A DNA stretch of 64,000 nucleotides, taken from Watersipora subatra (taxonomy: Eukaryota; Bryozoa; Gymnolaemata; Cheilostomatida; Watersiporidae). Every line of letters starts with the position of its first letter. The first letter of the stretch is position 1. Where the stretch lies: positions 59,934,248 to 59,998,247 of the forward strand of contig NC_088711.1 in NCBI RefSeq assembly GCF_963576615.1, given 5' to 3'. The translations under genes were made by a program, and so were the position numbers. Below, in pieces: positions 16,150 to 62,137 of this stretch. The notes beneath the pieces are model-generated. The model searched no databases. It had not been told where the DNA came from and saw only the letters and a list, made by a program, of their open reading frames with translations.

Positions 16150-19028
16150 TACACATTCAACTGATCATTATAATGTACACATCTAACTGATCGTTATAAT
16201 GTACACATCTAACTGATCGTTATAATGTATACATCCAGTTGATCATTATAATGTACACATCTAACTGATCGTTATAATGTACACATCTAACCGATCGTTA
16301 TAATGTACACATCTAACTGATCGTTATAATGTATACATCCAACTGATCGTTATAATGTACACATCTAACTGATCGTTATAATGTATACATCCAACTGATC
16401 ATTATAATGTACACATCTAACTGATCGTTATAATGTACACATCTAACTGATCGTTATAATGTATACATCTAACTGATCATTATAGTGTATACATCTAACT
16501 GATCATTATAATGTATACATCCAACTGATTATTGTAATGTATACATCCAACTGATCATTTTAGTATATACATCTAACTGAGCATTGTAATGTATACATCC
16601 AACTGATTATTGTAATGTACACATCTAACTGATCGTTATAATGTACACATCTAACTGATCGTTATAATGTATACATCCAACTGATCGTTATAATGTACAC
16701 ATCTAACTGATCGTTATAATGTATACATCCAACTGATCATTATAATGTACACATCTAACTGATCGTTATAATGTACACATCTAACTGATCGTTATAATGT
16801 ATACATCTAACTGATCATTATAGTGTATACATCTAACTGATCATTATAATGTATACATCCAACTGATTATTGTAATGTATACATCCAACTGATCATTTTA
16901 GTATATACATCTAACTGAGCATTGTAATGTATACATCCAACTGATTATTGTAATGTATACATCTAACTGATCATTTTAATATATACATCCAAGTGATCAT
17001 TGTAATGTATACATCAAACTGATCATTATAATGTATACATCTAACTGATCATTATAATGTATACATCCAACTGATCATTATAATGTATACATCCAACTGA
17101 TTATTGTAATGTATACATCTAACTGATCATTTTAATGTATACATCTAACTGAGCATTGTAATGTATACATCCAACTGATTATTTTAATATATACATCCAA
17201 GTGATCATTGTAATGTATACATCAAACTGATCATTATAATGTATACATCTAACTGATCATTATAATGTATACATTTAACTGATCATTATAATGTATACAT
17301 CTAACTGATCATTATAATGTATACATCTAACTGATCATTGTAATGTATACATCTAACTGATCATTGTAATGTATACATCGAACTGATCATTATAATGTAT
17401 ACATCTAACTGATCATTGTAATGTATACATCTAACTGATCATTATAAAGTATACATCTAACTGATCATTGTAATGTATACATCTAACTGATCATTATAAT
17501 GTATACATCCAACTGATCATTATAATGTATACATCTAACTGATCATTATAATGTATACATCTAACTGATCATTATAATGTATACATCTAACTGATCATTA
17601 TAATGTATACATTTAACTGATCATTATAATGTATACATCTAACTGATCATTATAATGTATACATCTAACTGATCATTGTAATGTATACATCGAACTGATC
17701 ATTATAATGTATACATCTAACTGATCATTGTAATGTATACATCTAACTGATCATTATAAAGTATACATCTAACTGATCATTGTAATGTATACATCTAACT
17801 GATCATTATAATGTATACATCCAACTGATCATTATAATGTATACATCTAACTGATCATTATAATGTATACATCTAACTGATCATTATAATGTATACATCT
17901 AACTGATCATTATAATGTATACATTTAACTGATCATTATAATGTATACATCTAACTGATCATTATAATGTATACATCTAACTGATCATTGTAATGTATAC
18001 ATCTAACTGATCATTATAAAGTATACATCTAACTGATCATTATAATGTATACATCCAACTGATCATTATAATGTATACATCCAACTGATCATTATAATGT
18101 ATACATCTAACTGTTCATTATAATGTATACATCTAACTGATCATTATAATGTATACATCTAACTGATCATTATAATGTATACATCTAACTGATCATTATA
18201 ATGTATACATCTAACTGATCATTATAATGTATACATCTAACTGATCATTTTAAGGTATACATCCAACTGATCATTATAATGTATACATCTAACTGATCAT
18301 TATAATGTATACATCTAACTGATCATTATAATGTATACATCTAACTGATCATTATAATGTATACATCTAACTGATCATTATGATGTATACATCTAACTGA
18401 TCATTATAATGTATACATCTAACTGATCATTATAATGTATACATCTAACTGACCATTGTAATGTATACATCTAACTGATCATTATAATGTATACATCTAA
18501 CTGATCATTATAATGTATACATTTAACTGATCATTATAATGTATACATCTAACTGATCATTATAATGTATACATCTAACTGATCATTATGATGTATACAT
18601 CTAACTGATCATTATAATGTATACATCTAACTGATCATTATAATGTATACATCTAACTGACCATTATAATGTATACATCTAACTGATCATTATAATGTAT
18701 ACATCTAACTGATCATTATGATGTATACATCTAACTGATCATTATAATGTATACATCTAACTGATCATTATAATGTATACATCTAACTGATCATTATAAT
18801 GTATACATCTAACTGATCATTATAATGTATACATCTAACTGATCATTATGATGTATACATCTAACTGATCATTATAATGTATACATCTAACTGATCATTA
18901 TAATGTATACATCTAACTGACCATTGTAAGGTATACATCCAACTGATCATTATAGTGTATACATCTAACTGATCATTATAATGTATACATCCAACTGATC
19001 ATTTTAAGGTATACATCTAACTGATCAT
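16150..19028. repeat. 26-bp palindrome-rich satellite, about 110 units (copy A)
   Basis: The consensus unit is ATCTAACTGATCATTATAAT followed by GTATAC. Each unit holds three perfect palindromes when unmutated: TGATCA, ATTATAAT and ATGTATACAT. The left third is enriched in variants (GATCGTTA, GTACACAT). Higher-order repetition is visible: a variant string at 16,517 recurs at 16,855 (338 bp, 13 units), and the rare AAAGTATACAT variant at 17,434 recurs at 17,746 (312 bp, 12 units). It may be intronic to the gene at 3,091 if the 19,050 exon is used. Confidence 0.95.
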
Positions 19029-19385: not shown

Positions 19386-19472
19386 AGGCCTTCAGAGAAA
19401 ATTTATATTTAATCAACATATGTAACATTTATCATTCTAACTTTTAAATGAAGGTGTTTATTTATTACTGTC

Positions 19473-20896
19473 TACTGTGTACATACTGTGTACATACTGT
19501 GTACATACTGTGTACATACTGTGTACATACTGTGTACATACTGTGTACATACTGTGTACATACTGTGTACATACTGTGTACATACTGTGTACATACTGTG
19601 TACATACTGTGTACATACTGTGTACATACTGTGTACATACTGTGTACATACTGTGTACATACTGTGTACATACTGTGTACATACTGTGTACATACTGTGT
19701 ACATACTGTGTACATACTGTGTACATACTGTGTACATACTGTGTACATACTGTGTACATACTGTGTACATACTGTGTACATACTGTGTACATACTGTGTA
19801 CATACTGTGTACATACTGTGTACATACTGTGTACATACTGTGTACATACTGTGTACATACTGTGTACATACTGTGTACATACTGTGTACATACTGTGTAC
19901 ATACTGTGTACATACTGTGTACATACTGTGTACATACTGTGTACATACTGTGTACATACTGTGTACATACTGTGTACATACTGTGTACATACTGTGTACA
20001 TACTGTGTACATACTGTGTACATACTGTGTACATACTGTGTACATACTGTGTACATACTGTGTACATACTGTGTACATACTGTGTACATACTGTGTACAT
20101 ACTGTGTACATACTGTGTACATACTGTGTACATACTGTGTACATACTGTGTACATACTGTGTACATACTGTGTACATACTGTGTACATACTGTGTACATA
20201 CTGTGTACATACTGTGTACATACTGTGTACATACTGTGTACATACTGTGTACATACTGTGTACATACTGTGTACATACTGTGTACATACTGTGTACATAC
20301 TGTGTACATACTGTGTACATACTGTGTACATACTGTGTACATACTGTGTACATACTGTGTACATACTGTGTACATACTGTGTACATACTGTGTACATACT
20401 GTGTACATACTGTGTACATACTGTGTACATACTGTGTACATACTGTGTACATACTGTGTACATACTGTGTACATACTGTGTACATACTGTGTACATACTG
20501 TGTACATACTGTGTACATACTGTGTACATACTGTGTACATACTGTGTACATACTGTGTACATACTGTGTACATACTGTGTACATACTGTGTACATACTGT
20601 GTACATACTGTGTACATACTGTGTACATACTGTGTACATACTGTGTACATACTGTGTACATACTGTGTACATACTGTGTACATACTGTGTACATACTGTG
20701 TACATACTGTGTACATACTGTGTACATACTGTGTACATACTGTGTACATACTGTGTACATACTGTGTACATACTGTGTACATACTGTGTACATACTGTGT
20801 ACATACTGTGTACATACTGTGTACATACTGTGTACATACTGTGTACATACTGTGTACATACTGTGTACATACTGTGTACATACTGTGTACATACTG
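19473..20896. repeat. Near-perfect 11-bp repeat, about 129 units
   Basis: TACTGTGTACA is repeated about 129.5 times with no variant that I could find. The matching position in copy B (43,863-43,878) has about 1.5 units, so this is a recent, extreme expansion. Each unit contains the palindrome TGTACA and, on the + strand, TGTACATA. Since 11 is not divisible by 3 and the unit lacks stops, the array is open in all six frames, which explains the very long repetitive ORFs. Confidence 0.98.
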
Positions 20897-21149
20897 GACC
20901 GACTGCAGCACTTACTATACTGTATATAGATCTATACTGGTTGCAATAGTTTTGTTGGCCAAGTGAGTTTAAACATTTTTTTCACGCGTTGGCATGGATA
21001 TTATAGCTAGCTGCAGTGGGGAGCGTGAAGCCATGAAAGATTTGCATGGGCAATAAGTTTGCAAACAAACCCGCGGACGAGCCGACGAACGGAATAGCGA
21101 ACAAGTGGACTAGCAGACAAACATTGATATATCTATATACGTGTAGTTT

Positions 21150-28869: not shown

Positions 28870-31706
28870 TCACTTGTTGTATGACACCTCCGAGTAATAC
28901 TCCTGGAATAGGTGATTTAGGATTATATTTGCTCAAATTTGGTGAACATTATCACGCTGTTATAAATCCCAAAGACATAGAAAAGGTAATGGTACAGATT
29001 ACTTTTACGCGTTCTGCAACATTTATATGAGCAAAAAAATTGCAATTGTTGCAATTCTAAATGCTCAAGATGCAAAACCGCTCTTCACAATTGTGGAGAT
29101 AAATGTACGATACGCAACAAGTGATTATGCAATAGATGAGTTCCCAAGTGCGAAGAAGTACCTAATAAAAATATTACACAAAAATCGAATGCTGTGTGGT
29201 GTATGCGATGTTTCCTACCTCAAGGTAAATAAGCATAACTGCTTTCCTATCTCAAACTAGATAAGCATAACTGCTTTCATACCTCAAGGTAGATAAGCAT
29301 AACTGCTTTCCTACCTCAAGGTAGGTAAGCATAACTGCTATATTACAAGGTTTCCGTGTTGTAAAGAAACTGTGTACAACGGTGACCCGTATTTTATTTA
29401 AAAAATTTTCTCTGAGAATGTCAGTCATAGACTACAAATGCTTCACCGACAACTACCTAAATCAATATGTACATGTATCTAAACGAAAGCAATTTCGTCA
29501 TTGTCCATAAACAACGATACTGGTTCTGTAAACATTGATGCAGATGGTACAGTGTATCGAACGTTTTTTTCAACTACGAAATTTGTGATTGGTTGGTTAA
29601 CATACCCGTTCAAACAACAGCTGTAGCTTTCAACGGAGGAAAATATGATTGCATATTTATCATCAACTACCTTTTATGAAGGGTATTATTCCTGACATTG
29701 TTTTAAAAAGTAGCGACATTAAACGACTCCAATATAAAAAGATTACTGTATTAGACAGCTATGCTCACATACCCGTAGCACTGAGAAAATTTACTAGTAT
29801 ATTTGGCATAGAAGAAACCAAACAAGATAGTTTTCTTCTAAAATTTATATCTCAATGCAACAAGGATTGTGTAGGAGGAATATCAAGCAAGTAATGGTTT
29901 TATGATGACGCTCCTGAATGTCGGAGTTGAGATGACAGTTTACTAAAAGTGGTATTGTAGTCATTCAAAAGGAAAATATTTGATTATTGTAAAAGTGAAG
30001 TAAGAGTGATGTACAAAAAGTGTGAAAAGTTTAAAAAACTATTTTTAAACTTTTTGGTTCAGATCCTTTCGCTTATGTTACCTGTGCCTCACACGGTCAA
30101 GCAATATACACTACGCTGTATTTGCCAAAAGTTCTATTCTAATATTGCAAGACAAATTTAATGAAGAGTACAAGTGTTATAAAAAAGAAAAACAATGAAT
30201 TAAATTCATAGACTACTAAAATGGTGAGAATCACACCCAAATATAAAATACGAATACATGAGTAAATGGTTGTTATGGAAAAAATATATACATGTTTTAC
30301 GAATGCTTTTGACATGGATGCAAATGATGTTTTGCAACTGGTACCAATAATGTTAACACAAAGTCATTTAATTACTTGTAAGCCTAAGCTCTGAACATTT
30401 TCAATGAACTAGGAAAAAGTACAATGTGGTACATATTCGGGAAAATGAGTTTAATAAACTCGCCAAACTAAACCAAGATAAACGAGTTCGATCTATCATT
30501 AAATTCTCACCATGCAATGTTTGATGGAAGGACTGAGACATTTACCTCTTATAAAAAAGCTAGAAACCTACATTATTATGACTTTGTCTGCTTGTATCCA
30601 ATGATAAACAAGCACAATTACATTAGTATACATCAGGTAAATGCAACATGTTAAAAAATCTAACAATTGGTAAGCCCGACTGGTTTGGATTTCCTACTGT
30701 TACAGTCACTCCACCGAATGACCAAGAAATATCAATATTGCCAGCTAGAGGTGAAATATTCACATTTGTACTGTGACCAAAAAAGGTACATTGGTATGCA
30801 AGGAAATATTGTGCGTGCTAACAAGAGGGTTACAAAGTTTACAAAGTAATGGTAATGATGAAAATATAGTCAGTTTATTTAAAGGTCATTTAGATAATTT
30901 TGTGAATATTAAAATTGAAGGAGGTAAGCTATTAAAATCATGGAATGAGAGTACACGTAAATATGTCGATTATATTTTGGAAAAGTCAAAAATCAAAGCT
31001 GACCCTGACAAAATAATGCATAATGAAAGTCTAAGATATGTTACCAAGCTGCGTCGGAATTTTCTCTGGGGGAAGATTGGACAAAATTTGAATAGAGATG
31101 AGGTATCCTACGTTAATAGCAAATTAGAATATTTAAAGTATTTTGAAAAGATGAAACACAATGAAATACTAACTGAAAAGATAGTATATCTATGACGATT
31201 GTGGGAGATGAAAGGCCTACATTTAGGGTGTCCATGTGCGTATCAGCTTATCTAACGGCACATGCTAGGATTAGACTACATTAGCTGATAATGTCTATAA
31301 ACGTGCAAGGTAAAAAATGTATTATTATGATAGGAATAGTGTCATATTTAGAGCTACTGTAGCTTCTGATTAAGCTCCAAATGAATTATCACCAGGAGAA
31401 TATATTGAAACATTTTTGTCAGTTGGTGCAAAAGCGTGCGCCTATAAGACCAACACGGGTAATCAGACCATCAAATTAAAATGAATATTCCTGAGAAGCA
31501 GATCAGAACTCTATAAAAAGATGATTGCCATAATCAAAGAAGAGTTAAAAGATGTTAGAGTGTCAACTGGAGCTACATTCAGAGTCAGCAGTTTGTTCAA
31601 AATACGTACGGAACCAGCAAGCAAAACCATAACAAAAACTTTGAATAAAAGAGTTTTTTTTAAAGATGGTACATCATTGCCATTCGGTTATAAAAATATT
31701 AAATAA
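28870..31706 (+). pseudogene. Polinton/Maverick protein-primed DNA polymerase B, decayed
   Basis: Fragments in all three + frames follow the order of Polinton PolB. A possible N-terminal piece lies at 28,890-29,230. The exonuclease-domain region at 29,630-29,895 includes GGKYDCIFI-like sequence, then ITVLDSYAHIPVALRKF and FGIEETK. A linker region (30,060-30,120) includes PFAYVTCASHGQAIYTTLY. Motif A (30,572-30,603) reads YYDFVCLYPMINK. A TVTPPNDQ-ILPARG region lies at 30,700-30,760. Another segment runs through FKGHLDNFVNIK to motif B (KLRRNFLWGK, about 31,050-31,080). A SAYLTAHAR segment (31,230) follows, then motif C at 31,319-31,340 and a C-terminal KRVFFKDGTSLPFGY (31,640-31,695). Several frameshifts and stops separate these pieces. 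Motif C reads YYDRNS where the family has YxDTDS, so a catalytic Asp is lost. It is a dead copy; no integrase, ATPase or capsid genes are seen beside it. Confidence 0.88.
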
Positions 31707-41105: not shown

Positions 41106-43414
41106 TACGGTGTACATCCAACTGATCATTATAATGTATACATCTAACTGATCATTATAATGTATACATCTAACTGATCATTATAATGTATACATCTAAC
41201 TGATCATTATAATGTATACATCTAACTGATCATTATAATGTATACATCCAACTGATCATTATAATGTATACATCTAACTGATCATTATAATGTATACATC
41301 CAACTGATCATTGTAATGTATACATCTAACTGATAATTTTAATGTATACATCCAATGATCATTATAATGTATACATCCAACTGATCATTATAATGTACAC
41401 ATTCAACTGATCATTATAATGTATACATCTAACTGATCATTGTAATGTATACATCTAACTGATCATTATAATGTATACATCCAACTGATCATTGTAATGT
41501 ATACATCTAACTGATAATTTTAATGTATACATCCAATGATCATTATAATGTATACATCCAACTGATCATTATAATGTACACATTCAACTGATCATTATAA
41601 TGTATACATCTAACTGATCATTGTAATGTATACATCCAACTGAGCATTATGATGTATACATCTAACTGATCATTATACAATACACATCTAACTGATCATT
41701 ATAATGTATACATCCAACTGATCATTTTAATGTATACATCCAACTGAGCATTATGATGTATACATCTAACTGATCATTATACAATACACATCTAACTGAT
41801 CATTATAATGTATACATCCAACTGATCATTATACAATACACATCTAACTGATCATTATACAATACACATCTAACTGATCATTATACAATACACATCTAAC
41901 TGATCATTATACAATACACATCTAACTGATCATTATACAATACACATTTAACTGATCATTATACAATACACATCTAACTGATCATTATCCAATACACATC
42001 TAACTGATCATTATACAATACACATCTAACTGATCATTATACAATACACATCTAACTGATCATTATACAATACACATCTAACTGATCGTTATACAATAGA
42101 CATCTAACTGATCATTATAATGTATACATCTAACTGATCATTATATTGTATACATCTAACTGATCATTATGATGTATACATCTAACTGATCGTTATAATG
42201 TCTACATCTAACTGATCATTGTAATGTATACATCCAACTGATCATTATAATGTATACATCCAACTGATCATTATAATGTATACATCCAACTGATCATTTT
42301 AATGTATACATCTAACTGAGCATTATAATGTATACATCTAACTGATCATTATAATGTATACATCCAACTTATCATTATAATGTATACATCCAACTGGTCA
42401 TTATAATGTATACATCCAACTGATCATTTTAATGTATACATCTAACTGATCATTATACAATACACATCTAACTGATCATTATACAATACACATCTAACTG
42501 ATCATTATACAATAGACATCTAACTGATCATTATACAATACACATCTAACTGATCATTATACAATACACATCTAACTGATCATTATACAATACACATCTA
42601 ACTGATCATTATACAATACACATCTAACTGATCATTATACAATACACATCTAACTGATCATTATACAATACACATCTAACTGATCATTATACAATACACA
42701 TCTAACTGATCATTATACAATACACATCTAACTGATCATTATACAATACACATCTAACTGATCATTATACAATACACATCTAACTGATCATTATACAGTA
42801 CACATCTAACTGATCATTATACAATACACATCTAACTGATCATTATACAATACACATCTAACTGATCATTATGATGTATACATCTAACTGATCATTGTAA
42901 TGTATACATCTAACTGATCATTATGATGTATACATCTAACTGATCATTATATTGTATACATCTAACTGATCATTATGATGTATACATCTAACTGATCGTT
43001 ATAATGTCTACATATAACTGATCATTGTAATGTATACATCCAACTGATCATTATAATGTATACATCCAACTGATCATTATAGTGTATACATCTAACTGAT
43101 CGTTATAATGTATACATCCTCCTGATCATTATAATTTAGACATCCAACTCATCATTGTAATGTATACATCCAACTGATCATTATAATGTATACATCCAAC
43201 TGATCATTATAATGTATACATCTATCTGATCATTTTGATGTATACATGCAAATGATCATTGTAATGTACACATCAAACCTATCATTATAATGTATACATC
43301 CACCTGATCATTATAGTGTATACATCTAACTGATCATTGTAATGTATACATCCTACTGATCATTATAATTTAGACATCTAACTGATCATTGTAATGTATA
43401 TATCTAACTGATCA
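41106..43414. repeat. 26-bp satellite, about 89 units (copy B)
   Basis: Same 26-bp unit as at 16,150. Two blocks (about 41,660-42,110 and 42,440-42,860) consist of an ACAATACACATCTAACTGAT variant that is absent from copy A, which lacks the ATGTATACAT palindrome. This variant spread after the duplication, while copy A spread its own variants. Confidence 0.95.
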
Positions 43415-43496
43415 TTCTCTTATCTTCATTTCTAAGTGTGCTGCTCGACACAGACCAAGACATTAGTCATCATCACTTATTTGTAAGAAGCTGACA

Positions 43497-59878: not shown

Positions 59879-62137
59879 CTAGAATAAAGCACCTCTGTTA
59901 GAGTTGAACTATTTTAATTGGAGCTACTAATTTGCTCTGGAATGACAGCCAACACTTCAACAAGAAGATCCTAAAACTAAAACTAAAATTCTAATACCAA
60001 ACAGAAATAATCAGGTTTGATTATGCAATCTAAACCTCATTTCTGATATATTATAGACTTTTACAGTTTTATTTCTAATAAATTAATTTTATTCCCATTT
60101 CAAACTGAAAGTAATGTAATAAACACCAGAAAGTATCCATATGTCAAACAAAAGTAACTTAATGCCAGAATTACAAACAAAATTTTTAAAAAATCTTTAA
60201 AGAAAATTTTGGGTTTATCAAATTATTCATAACAAATTCACTCATCTACCAACCAGAACAACCAATAGTTAGTGGCACACAAAGCAGCGAGGGGTTAATG
60301 AGGCCATAAGCAGCAACTTTGCGAGCAATGACACTCATTGAAATGAAATCACAGCAGAAAACCACACCGAGGAAGATAATAATATTAACCGGTATTAACA
60401 GTAATGTTAACCGATAACATCCCAGCATGCATGGTAGTTCAAAATGATATGGCCTGAATTTTCTCCTGATCTCAAGCAAGAATGGTGAAACATGTGTAGG
60501 CAGGAGTTCGGCTTTAGTGAAACGCAAAAACAACTTAGAGGTTTTTGCCTGATTAGGATAATTGGGAGTTGTGTTACCATCTAATAGCATATTTTCATTC
60601 TCAATTGATTGAGACTTTCTTTCAAATTCTTTGGTTTTCAGATCAGCCTGCAGATAAATGTCTAACACGTGTGGCAGCAATTTCTCATGCAATATGAATA
60701 CTGTCGTAAATTGACTGTACATTGTGAGTAAGAAAGTGCTGAGAATATAATCTCCGTTCAATCTCTCTAAGAGGACAGTGACAACTTTCACAGATTTAGA
60801 GAAACAAACAGGTGAGTAGTTGGAAATAGCAATAAAAAGAGGTGTAATCTATCATCTCACCCTTGCGATGCTGGTTATAGAACCATTATAAACTCACCAG
60901 ATCAATGATGATTAAATATCTTATAAATTAATACTTTTAATATTAGTAATTAGGAGTTCGCTAAAAAATTCTCTACTTTTTTAGATTCAGTGTTCCCATA
61001 GCGAACAAGCGAGCTGTTACTTACGAAAGAAGAAAGGCTTAGACAAGACTAACAGAGAAAGATATAGAGCCAAGCAGATAACTATCAACTGCTACTAGTA
61101 AACCCAAAGGCGTGCGTGTTACGCTAATAGCTTCAAATCCTAGCAGCAAATTTACCATCCATTTTGTCATTCTCATTTTGCAACTTTTTCACTTCGCCCT
61201 CTGCGGTCTGTGCTCTATTTTCTGCCTAATTGAAAGCAGGAGAAATATGCGTGATTGAAGGGCAGGTGGAAATATTACCAGCCACCTGGGAACAGGAGAA
61301 TCTACGGTGTGGTGTGCGGGTGTATAGCAGTCTCGAGACTACAAGGTTTTAGCACACTCGGCATCAGAAAGGAGAGAAAAAGGGAGTAGAGAAAATTACC
61401 ACTACGGGGGAAAAAAGAACCAATCAGATGACGCTCATTCTCAGATGGCTTATGCTGCCGTGCGAGTGAGATCGCGCTGCACAGAGCATGGGATCACATC
61501 TAATTACCTTCGAGAGATTCATTCTCTTTCTGCATTTTGTTGGTTTGTCGTTCAAATTCAGAAGCCCTGTTTTCAGCCTAAAAGTGTCTAAGAGCATAAG
61601 CATGCGGGGGAAATAGTTAGTCATTTGTTTAAAAACCTTATGATTACAGTTAGTTTTATTGAATTGAAATTTTAACTGACCGACTAATTTTCCTATCATT
61701 ACAATAAAAAATACCATAAATCGATATAGCTAACTTCGTCGTTGCAACTGGAATTGCAATCTCAGTAAGCAAGAGAGGACAACTCCTAGCTATTCATCAA
61801 AATGTTTTTCAACATGTTAACTAAAAAAATAAAGTGTGATGAAGTCACTAGTCGAAAGCAAATATTTTATGGTTGTCACCAAAGAATCAGTATGCTCAGA
61901 TTACAGTAATGCTGCTGACTTACATTTTTCAGACAATTTTTAAGCGCACAGACAAAAGATTCAGTTTTTTGAACTTAATTTTAGTATAGTAATAACTGTG
62001 CATCTATTACGATTTTCTTGCAATGGTTTTCCAAGTAATAAAAAAGGTCAAGCAGGAATTAGAGCAATACGTACGTCTTTTAGCCGCTCGTTCAGATCCC
62101 GGATTGTCTCTTCATAAGCTTCCTCTCTCTGGGATGC
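59796..62137 (-). CDS. Tropomyosin, 3' part of gene with three alternative exons 8
   Basis: Actin-binding coiled-coil protein that lies along thin filaments and controls myosin access. Only the end of the gene is in the window: exon 7 (62,137-62,075), three candidate exon 8 cassettes (61,577-61,508, 61,225-61,156 and 60,647-60,578) and the terminal exon (59,878-59,796). Exon lengths (63, 70 and 83 coding nt) and the order of encoded blocks match the conserved tropomyosin layout for residues 214-234, 235-257 and 258-284. Each cassette keeps the heptad pattern of hydrophobic residues. Exon 7 ends in phase 0 and the terminal exon starts by finishing a codon opened by a final G of exon 8, so exactly one cassette must be used. 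The first six or so exons lie to the right of 64,000. Confidence 0.93.
60578..60647 (-). CDS. Tropomyosin alternative exon 8, third cassette
   Basis: Acceptor TTTATCTGCAG and donor GATG|GTAAC bound a 70-nt exon encoding ADLKTKEFERKSQSIENE then NMLLD. It shares EFER and ENE with the first cassette but has an unusual ADLKT start in place of AENRA. It is hidden inside a longer 181-codon open frame, most of which is intron. Confidence 0.8.
61156..61225 (-). CDS. Tropomyosin alternative exon 8, second cassette
   Basis: Acceptor TTTCAATTAG and donor GATG|GTAAAT bound a 70-nt exon. It encodes AENRAQTAEGEVKKLQNE then NDKMD, close to the animal pattern AExRAxxAExxVxKLxxxxDxLE. Of the three it most resembles the usual constitutive exon. 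Confidence 0.88.
61508..61577 (-). CDS. Tropomyosin alternative exon 8, first cassette
   Basis: Acceptor CACTTTTAG and donor GAAG|GTAATT bound a 70-nt exon encoding AENRASEFERQTNKMQKE then NESLE. It lies 497 nt downstream of exon 7 in transcript order and 282 nt before the second cassette. Confidence 0.88.
62075..62137 (-). CDS. Tropomyosin exon 7 (residues 214-234)
   Basis: A 63-nt exon reading ASQREEAYEETIRDLNERL then KD, between TTTTAACAG and GAC|GTACGT. It matches the family pattern xSQREExYExxIRxLxxxLKE and its 21-codon length exactly. Confidence 0.9.

Follow-up and report, generated by a model that had tools for sequence, protein, structure and literature searches.

Three tandem exon 8 cassettes, probably mutually exclusive, in a muscle-type tropomyosin gene

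Tandem arrays of alternative exons are already well known in tropomyosins. One source counts 13 tandem exon events across the four human genes, 7 across two genes of the fly, and six alternative events besides the N-terminal one in the lev-11 tropomyosin (PMC9741552). Vertebrate variation is described as confined to exons 1, 2, 6 and 9 (PMC4426136), in agreement with a preliminary description of the present locus, which had set exon 8 apart from the varying vertebrate exons. The features by which a mutually exclusive cluster is recognized are neighbouring exons of equal length, with the same phases, homologous sequences and compatible splice sites (PMC3228551); these are the features displayed by the three exons 8a, 8b and 8c described here. 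The three are homologous versions of exon 8 in a muscle-type tropomyosin gene and probably form a mutually exclusive cluster.

The window analysed comprised 64,000 nucleotides (C4:59934248-59998247) of a 784-Mb assembly in 239 contigs; adjoining C4 sequence and three further places with tropomyosin matches, on C1, C5 and C7, were also examined. The right end of the window carries the 3' part of a minus-strand tropomyosin gene, with only exons 7 to 9 inside, and exon coordinates beyond the window end are given in extended window coordinates (Table 1). Its identification as a tropomyosin in the preliminary description was borne out by exons 1-9, found in order over approximately 19 kb and matching exon by exon from end to end with their phases kept, by PF00261 matches above the cut-off in two C4 exons, and by phmmer, which aligned exons 7-8a-9 without gaps to solved vertebrate tropomyosins (best 2d3e, E 8e-12). 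Exon lengths of 126, 134, 118, 71, 76, 63 and 70 nt are consistent with the vertebrate phases. Arrays of two copies were found at exons 4 and 5 and arrays of three at exons 6 and 8, so that 2 x 2 x 3 x 3 = 36 forms are conceivable on paper; the array exons at 4, 5 and 6 measure 118, 71 and 76 nt, none a multiple of three. Because they lie mostly outside the window, the arrays at exons 4, 5 and 6 and the paralogue considered below were absent from the preliminary description. Scanning by similarity from 62000 to 52100 gave no second terminal exon, although a dissimilar one would escape such a scan.

Table 1. Positions of the tropomyosin exons and candidate motifs on C4
Feature	Details	Position	Strand	Basis or coordinate system
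Exon 1		about 78751-78638	minus	extended window coordinates
Exon 2		76647-76522	minus	extended window coordinates
Exon 3		70378-70245	minus	extended window coordinates
Exon 4	two copies	67994-67877, 67515-67398	minus	extended window coordinates
Exon 5	two copies	66926-66856, 66730-66660	minus	extended window coordinates
Exon 6	three copies	64956-64881, 64517-64442, 64303-64228	minus	extended window coordinates
Exon 7	63 nt, ASQREEAYEETIRDLNERLKD, residues 214-234	62075..62137	minus	gapless phmmer match, exons 7-8-9
8a (cassette 1)	70 nt, Arg at 244	61508..61577	minus	open-frame scan, shuffles, splice scores
8b (cassette 2)	70 nt, Gly at 244	61156..61225	minus	open-frame scan, shuffles, splice scores
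8c (cassette 3)	70 nt, most diverged	60578..60647	minus	open-frame scan, shuffles, splice scores
TGCATG	candidate RBFOX-type, 38 nt upstream of 8c acceptor	60686..60691	minus	motif match
TGCATG	candidate RBFOX-type, 146 nt downstream of 8c	60426..60431	minus	motif match
Exon 9	terminal coding, includes stop codon	59796..59878	minus	similarity

Elsewhere in the window, an 11-bp satellite (TACTGTGTACA) occupies 19473-20896 in about 130 copies with 100% match, and accounts for the long open frames seen in all six readings at 19441-20981. Two long arrays, about 22 kb apart, share one 26-bp unit in different register (16159-19028, ~110 copies; 41113-43416, ~89 copies). On the plus strand, an open frame at 30755-31195 gave a weak match to DNA polymerase type B (PF03175, E 2e-4), below the curated cut-off.

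For detection of exon 8 homologues, the interval from exon 7 to the last exon was scanned for AG followed by 70 nt open in frame 0 and then GT or GC. Of the five candidates obtained, three had GT donors and are the cassettes; the other two had GC donors, and their similarity to vertebrate exon 8 scored negative. The cassettes have open frames that begin in phase 0 and end in phase 1, and they match tropomyosin residues 235-257 without gaps; they encode AENRASEFERQTNKMQKENESLE (8a), AENRAQTAEGEVKKLQNENDKMD (8b) and ADLKTKEFERKSQSIENENMLLD (8c), each with one further base, and the introns that separate them measure 282 and 508 nt. Compared with vertebrate exon 8 by BLOSUM62, 8a, 8b and 8c scored 45, 45 and 13, with a best value of 10 in 1000 dinucleotide shuffles of the exon 7-exon 9 interval; between cassettes they were 55, 44 and 30, compared with 26 for the best pair among shuffled candidates. 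A chance origin was rejected, as such scores were reached in 0 of 1000 shuffles. Among 164 open AG-70-GT candidates in 107 kb (both strands), the three cassettes ranked first, and no fourth copy, intact or decayed, rose above shuffle level when the scan was repeated without splice-site demands. Leave-one-out splice scores, from a small training set of 26 acceptors, one of which (exon 9) is shifted by one base, placed the acceptors of 8a, 8b and 8c at the 85th, 95th and 95th percentiles of local AGs; for the donors, the corresponding percentiles among local GTs were 99.5, 92 and 97. The three tandem 70-nt exons with good splice sites reported in the preliminary description were thus recovered with identical outer coordinates (61577 and 60578), and its assignment of all three to residues 235-257, phase 0 to 1, agreed with the gapless alignment and open frames.

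Joining exon 7, any one cassette and the last exon gave, in all three cases, 71 residues ending in DISGM-stop, with a 27-residue C-terminal segment identical for 8a, 8b and 8c. With two cassettes, the frame ran into a stop where the second one begins, 62-68 nt short of the last junction; with all three it did so inside the second cassette, 132 nt short of that junction; and skipping all cassettes shifted the frame to a 48-residue foreign tail with its stop in the last exon. The 70-nt length therefore allows only one cassette in the full-length frame. By the 50-nt rule for NMD, which derives from vertebrates, double or triple inclusion products are possible targets; the skip-all message escapes the rule because its shifted stop sits in the last exon. 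It had been proposed that this layout enforces a one-of-three choice, because using none or two would shift the frame of the terminal exon. Only single inclusion does give the full C-terminus, but the splicing choice itself is not enforced, the other products being merely faulty; likewise, skipping all cassettes does shift the last exon, whereas pairs stop within the second cassette.

A diverged paralogue was located on C1 (segment starting C1:48985000, plus strand), with two copies each of exons 4, 5 and 8 and three of exon 6; its exon 8s encode AQEKAVDFEKQAAEKQKNNEQLE and AEKRADDAEGSCKRLMKENEKLE, and one exon 9 was found. Pairing these collinearly with 8a and 8b scored 122, compared with 82 when crossed, and collinear pairing was obtained in 99.95% of column bootstraps (column-swap p 0.031). 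Support for collinear pairing was 92% for cluster 5 and 88% for cluster 4, with p 0.004 for clusters 4, 5 and 8 pooled; the second and third members of cluster 6 (6y and 6z) scored 219 collinear and 220 crossed. For exon 8, the four-point topology in which exon duplication precedes gene duplication received 90%. Replacement differences between C4 and C1 were 0.291 for the nine paired cassettes and 0.293 for constant exons 2, 3, 7 and 9 (0.338 for the exon 8 pairs), from which the paired cassettes appear about as constrained as the constant parts; silent differences, near saturation, were 0.85, 0.76 and 1.0, respectively. Conservation in the related gene was thereby seen for 8a and 8b and not for 8c, for which a similarity scan of the C1 paralogue against shuffles found no counterpart. 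Two further tropomyosin-like genes (C5:29955000-29964999 and C7:19014000-19023999) end in ADLNNV, with a last exon that fuses the exon 7-9 regions; because a single exon there encodes both the exon 8 region and the C-terminal segment, these genes cannot vary the former in the same way.

The least certain of the three cassettes is 8c, and the rather unlikely reading that only 8a and 8b are working alternatives, with 8c rarely used or a decaying duplicate of an 8a-type exon, draws on its low similarity to vertebrate exon 8 (13 against 45, with 5 of 23 residues identical) and on its absence from the C1 paralogue. Nor does 8c have a clear silent-site excess against the other four exon 8s (silent 0.43-0.92, replacement 0.42-0.53; 0.43 and 0.53 against C1 8b), and there is precedent for a rare cassette in C. 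elegans lev-11, where E7c is used approximately 1/5000 as often as E7b (PMC10512467). Against this reading stand an acceptor at the 95th and a donor at the 97th percentile, the exact length, an open frame free of proline, and hydrophobic or small residues at six of seven core positions together with Asn at 253, a residue common to all seven invertebrate exon 8 versions. It is also doubtful that the cassettes simply mark cell type (muscle versus cytoplasmic isoforms) by transcript choice with little mechanical difference. Such marking would be consistent with the net charge of -2 in each of the three C4 cassettes and with lev-11, in which E7a and E7b leave actin binding unaltered (PMC10512467), but core and surface residues differ among the cassettes (242 is Phe or Ala, 244 is Arg or Gly), and the 8a/8b signature is kept in both genes. 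We favour the reading that a choice among the three cassettes is made, and it is likely to be tissue- or stage-specific.

With regard to how one cassette is selected, Dscam-like competition between docking and selector RNAs in the introns, whose pairing would bring one cassette to exon 7, was considered. Three or more cassettes are typical of this mechanism, so that the number found here fits, and simple steric exclusion is unlikely across introns as long as 282 and 508 nt. Steric exclusion, which needs shorter introns than these, was itself rejected. When complementary docking sequences were sought between the cassettes, as the preliminary description had advised, no pairing above shuffles was seen: duplex energies for all six pairs of the four introns were within those of shuffles (24 each), as were local pairing scores (200 shuffles each), the observed value being reached in 19 of 200 shuffles at the lowest. 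Selection by docking and selector RNAs is accordingly very improbable for these cassettes.

A protein-based selection was examined through motif counts, with those for STAR, CELF and YGCY in the four introns compared with single-base shuffles. TGCATG came from a list of six motifs tried, making the RBFOX case post hoc, and is present in both introns flanking 8c. Sense and antisense copies numbered 29 and 5 in the C4 gene and 11 and 3 in the C1 gene, compared with 26 and 28, and 12 and 10, outside the genes (0.30 per strand-kb). Ten of the 29 C4 sense copies sit in one 26-bp tandem array (68406-68033, extended coordinates) immediately ahead of the first exon 4; when this array is counted once, the C4 strand bias of 20 to 5 gave p 0.004, or 0.016 allowing for TG/CA bias. 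Corresponding values were 0.057 or 0.090 for C1 alone, and 0.0003 or 0.003 for both genes. The two tropomyosin-like genes that lack the exon 8 array, both partial, showed no such pattern, with sense to antisense counts of 0 to 2 (C5) and 5 to 2 (C7).

TGCATG occurs within 60 nt before 6 of 27 acceptors, namely 4x, 6x and 8c in C4 and 4x, 6x and 8b in C1; 4x and 6x are thus common to both genes, and the exon 8 cassette concerned differs. None was found within 60 nt upstream of constant exons 2, 3, 7 and 9 in either gene. Six acceptors compare with 0.45 expected from the flanks (p 8e-6); measured against in-gene density, the excess gave p 0.012, 0.046 and 0.11 at 60, 80 and 100 nt, where TGCATG ranked 24, 63 and 172 among 4096 hexamers. 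Against a Markov model its rank was 16 in C4 and 334 in C1. Only two of the 4096 hexamers, TGCATG and TATTCT, occur upstream of at least two matching exons in both genes, and TATTCT looks like splice-site composition. In other systems, one member of a mutually exclusive FGFR2 exon pair is repressed by UGCAUG lying upstream of it, and Fox-1/ASD-1 acts with SUP-12 on the mutually exclusive exons of egl-15 (PMC2880598); Rbfox1 influences the C-terminal exons of Drosophila Tm1 (PMC8742874). Steering of cassette choice by an RBFOX-family protein through upstream UGCAUG is a tentative candidate on these motif positions, and somewhat less likely than not.

Core positions of the cassettes were assigned with the heptad register of tropomyosin, giving A-A-F-T-M-N-L for 8a, A-A-A-V-L-N-M for 8b and A-T-F-S-I-N-L for 8c. 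Residue 244 (TPM1 numbering) is Arg in 8a, 8c, the C5 and C7 genes and vertebrates, and Lys in C1 8a; Gly occupies it in 8b of both genes, and the remaining five invertebrate versions in the comparison lack it. For human TPM3 R244G/R245G (the name depending on numbering), a review table gives wild-type/mutant EC50 ratios of 0.46 and 0.45, or about half the normal calcium sensitivity (PMC5035734), and a second review describes the TPM3 Arg-to-Gly mutation as reducing both calcium sensitivity and the affinity for troponin (PMC10629095). We infer that this mutation occupies the position of Gly244 in 8b, a register supported by the fact that TPM3 E241K and R245G both fit the vertebrate letters at an offset of one. 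By analogy, 8b might give a thin filament less calcium-sensitive than 8a or 8c, although this is the less expected outcome. A troponin-family exon was matched once elsewhere in the genome (C1:22180991-22181200, E 1e-7).

In the mechanism proposed, one cassette per transcript would set coiled-coil residues 235-257, just before the C-terminal overlap segment, and the exon 8 cluster would act as one of four in the gene (exons 4, 5, 6 and 8). Where UGCAUG precedes a cassette, an RBFOX-family protein binding there would repress that cassette and so steer the choice. Taken to its full extent, the exon arrays of both ancient tropomyosin genes would form a combinatorial code of at most 36 and 24 forms. 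Its reader would be an RBFOX-type factor that recognizes UGCAUG ahead of the first exon 4, of the first exon 6 and of a single exon 8 cassette, and 8b would provide a physiological low-calcium-sensitivity filament by an Arg-to-Gly change at 244 of the TPM3-myopathy type; as a whole, this is improbable. Provided that the cassettes are in use, the stretch preceding the tropomyosin overlap, which is fixed in vertebrates, becomes switchable in this animal, and one gene could yield many tropomyosin variants. The Arg/Gly contrast at 244 in two paralogues would make a human disease site a natural comparison, testable with recombinant isoforms, and two genes with matching arrays offer an internal replicate for how one exon of several gets picked.

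In the literature searched, no array at tropomyosin exon 8 (residues 235-257) was found; the principal survey of the subject, outside that set (Irimia et al. 2010, MBE 27:1504), may report such arrays, and we therefore make no claim of their absence from print. Among described systems, exons 6a and 6b of vertebrate TPM1-4 belong to the same gene family, with the same exon boundaries and homologous tandem exons as here; the vertebrate genes vary exons 1, 2, 6 and 9 (PMC4426136), whereas here exon 8 (three cassettes) and exons 4 and 5 vary. C. elegans lev-11 is likewise an invertebrate tropomyosin with several arrays, including the three-way internal E7a/b/c, but its three-way exon encodes residues 188-234, and E8 carries no letter in the isoform formulas examined (PMC10512467). 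The exon 7a/7b pair of Drosophila and tarantula tropomyosin I is, as here, an alternative exon in the C-terminal third; it corresponds to residues 214-234 (PMC2674065), the exon preceding exon 8 of the present gene. In the muscle myosin heavy chain of lophotrochozoans and arthropods, a different protein and thus a parallel only, a single sarcomere gene again holds several mutually exclusive clusters, which have been gained and lost in parallel (PMC3912159).
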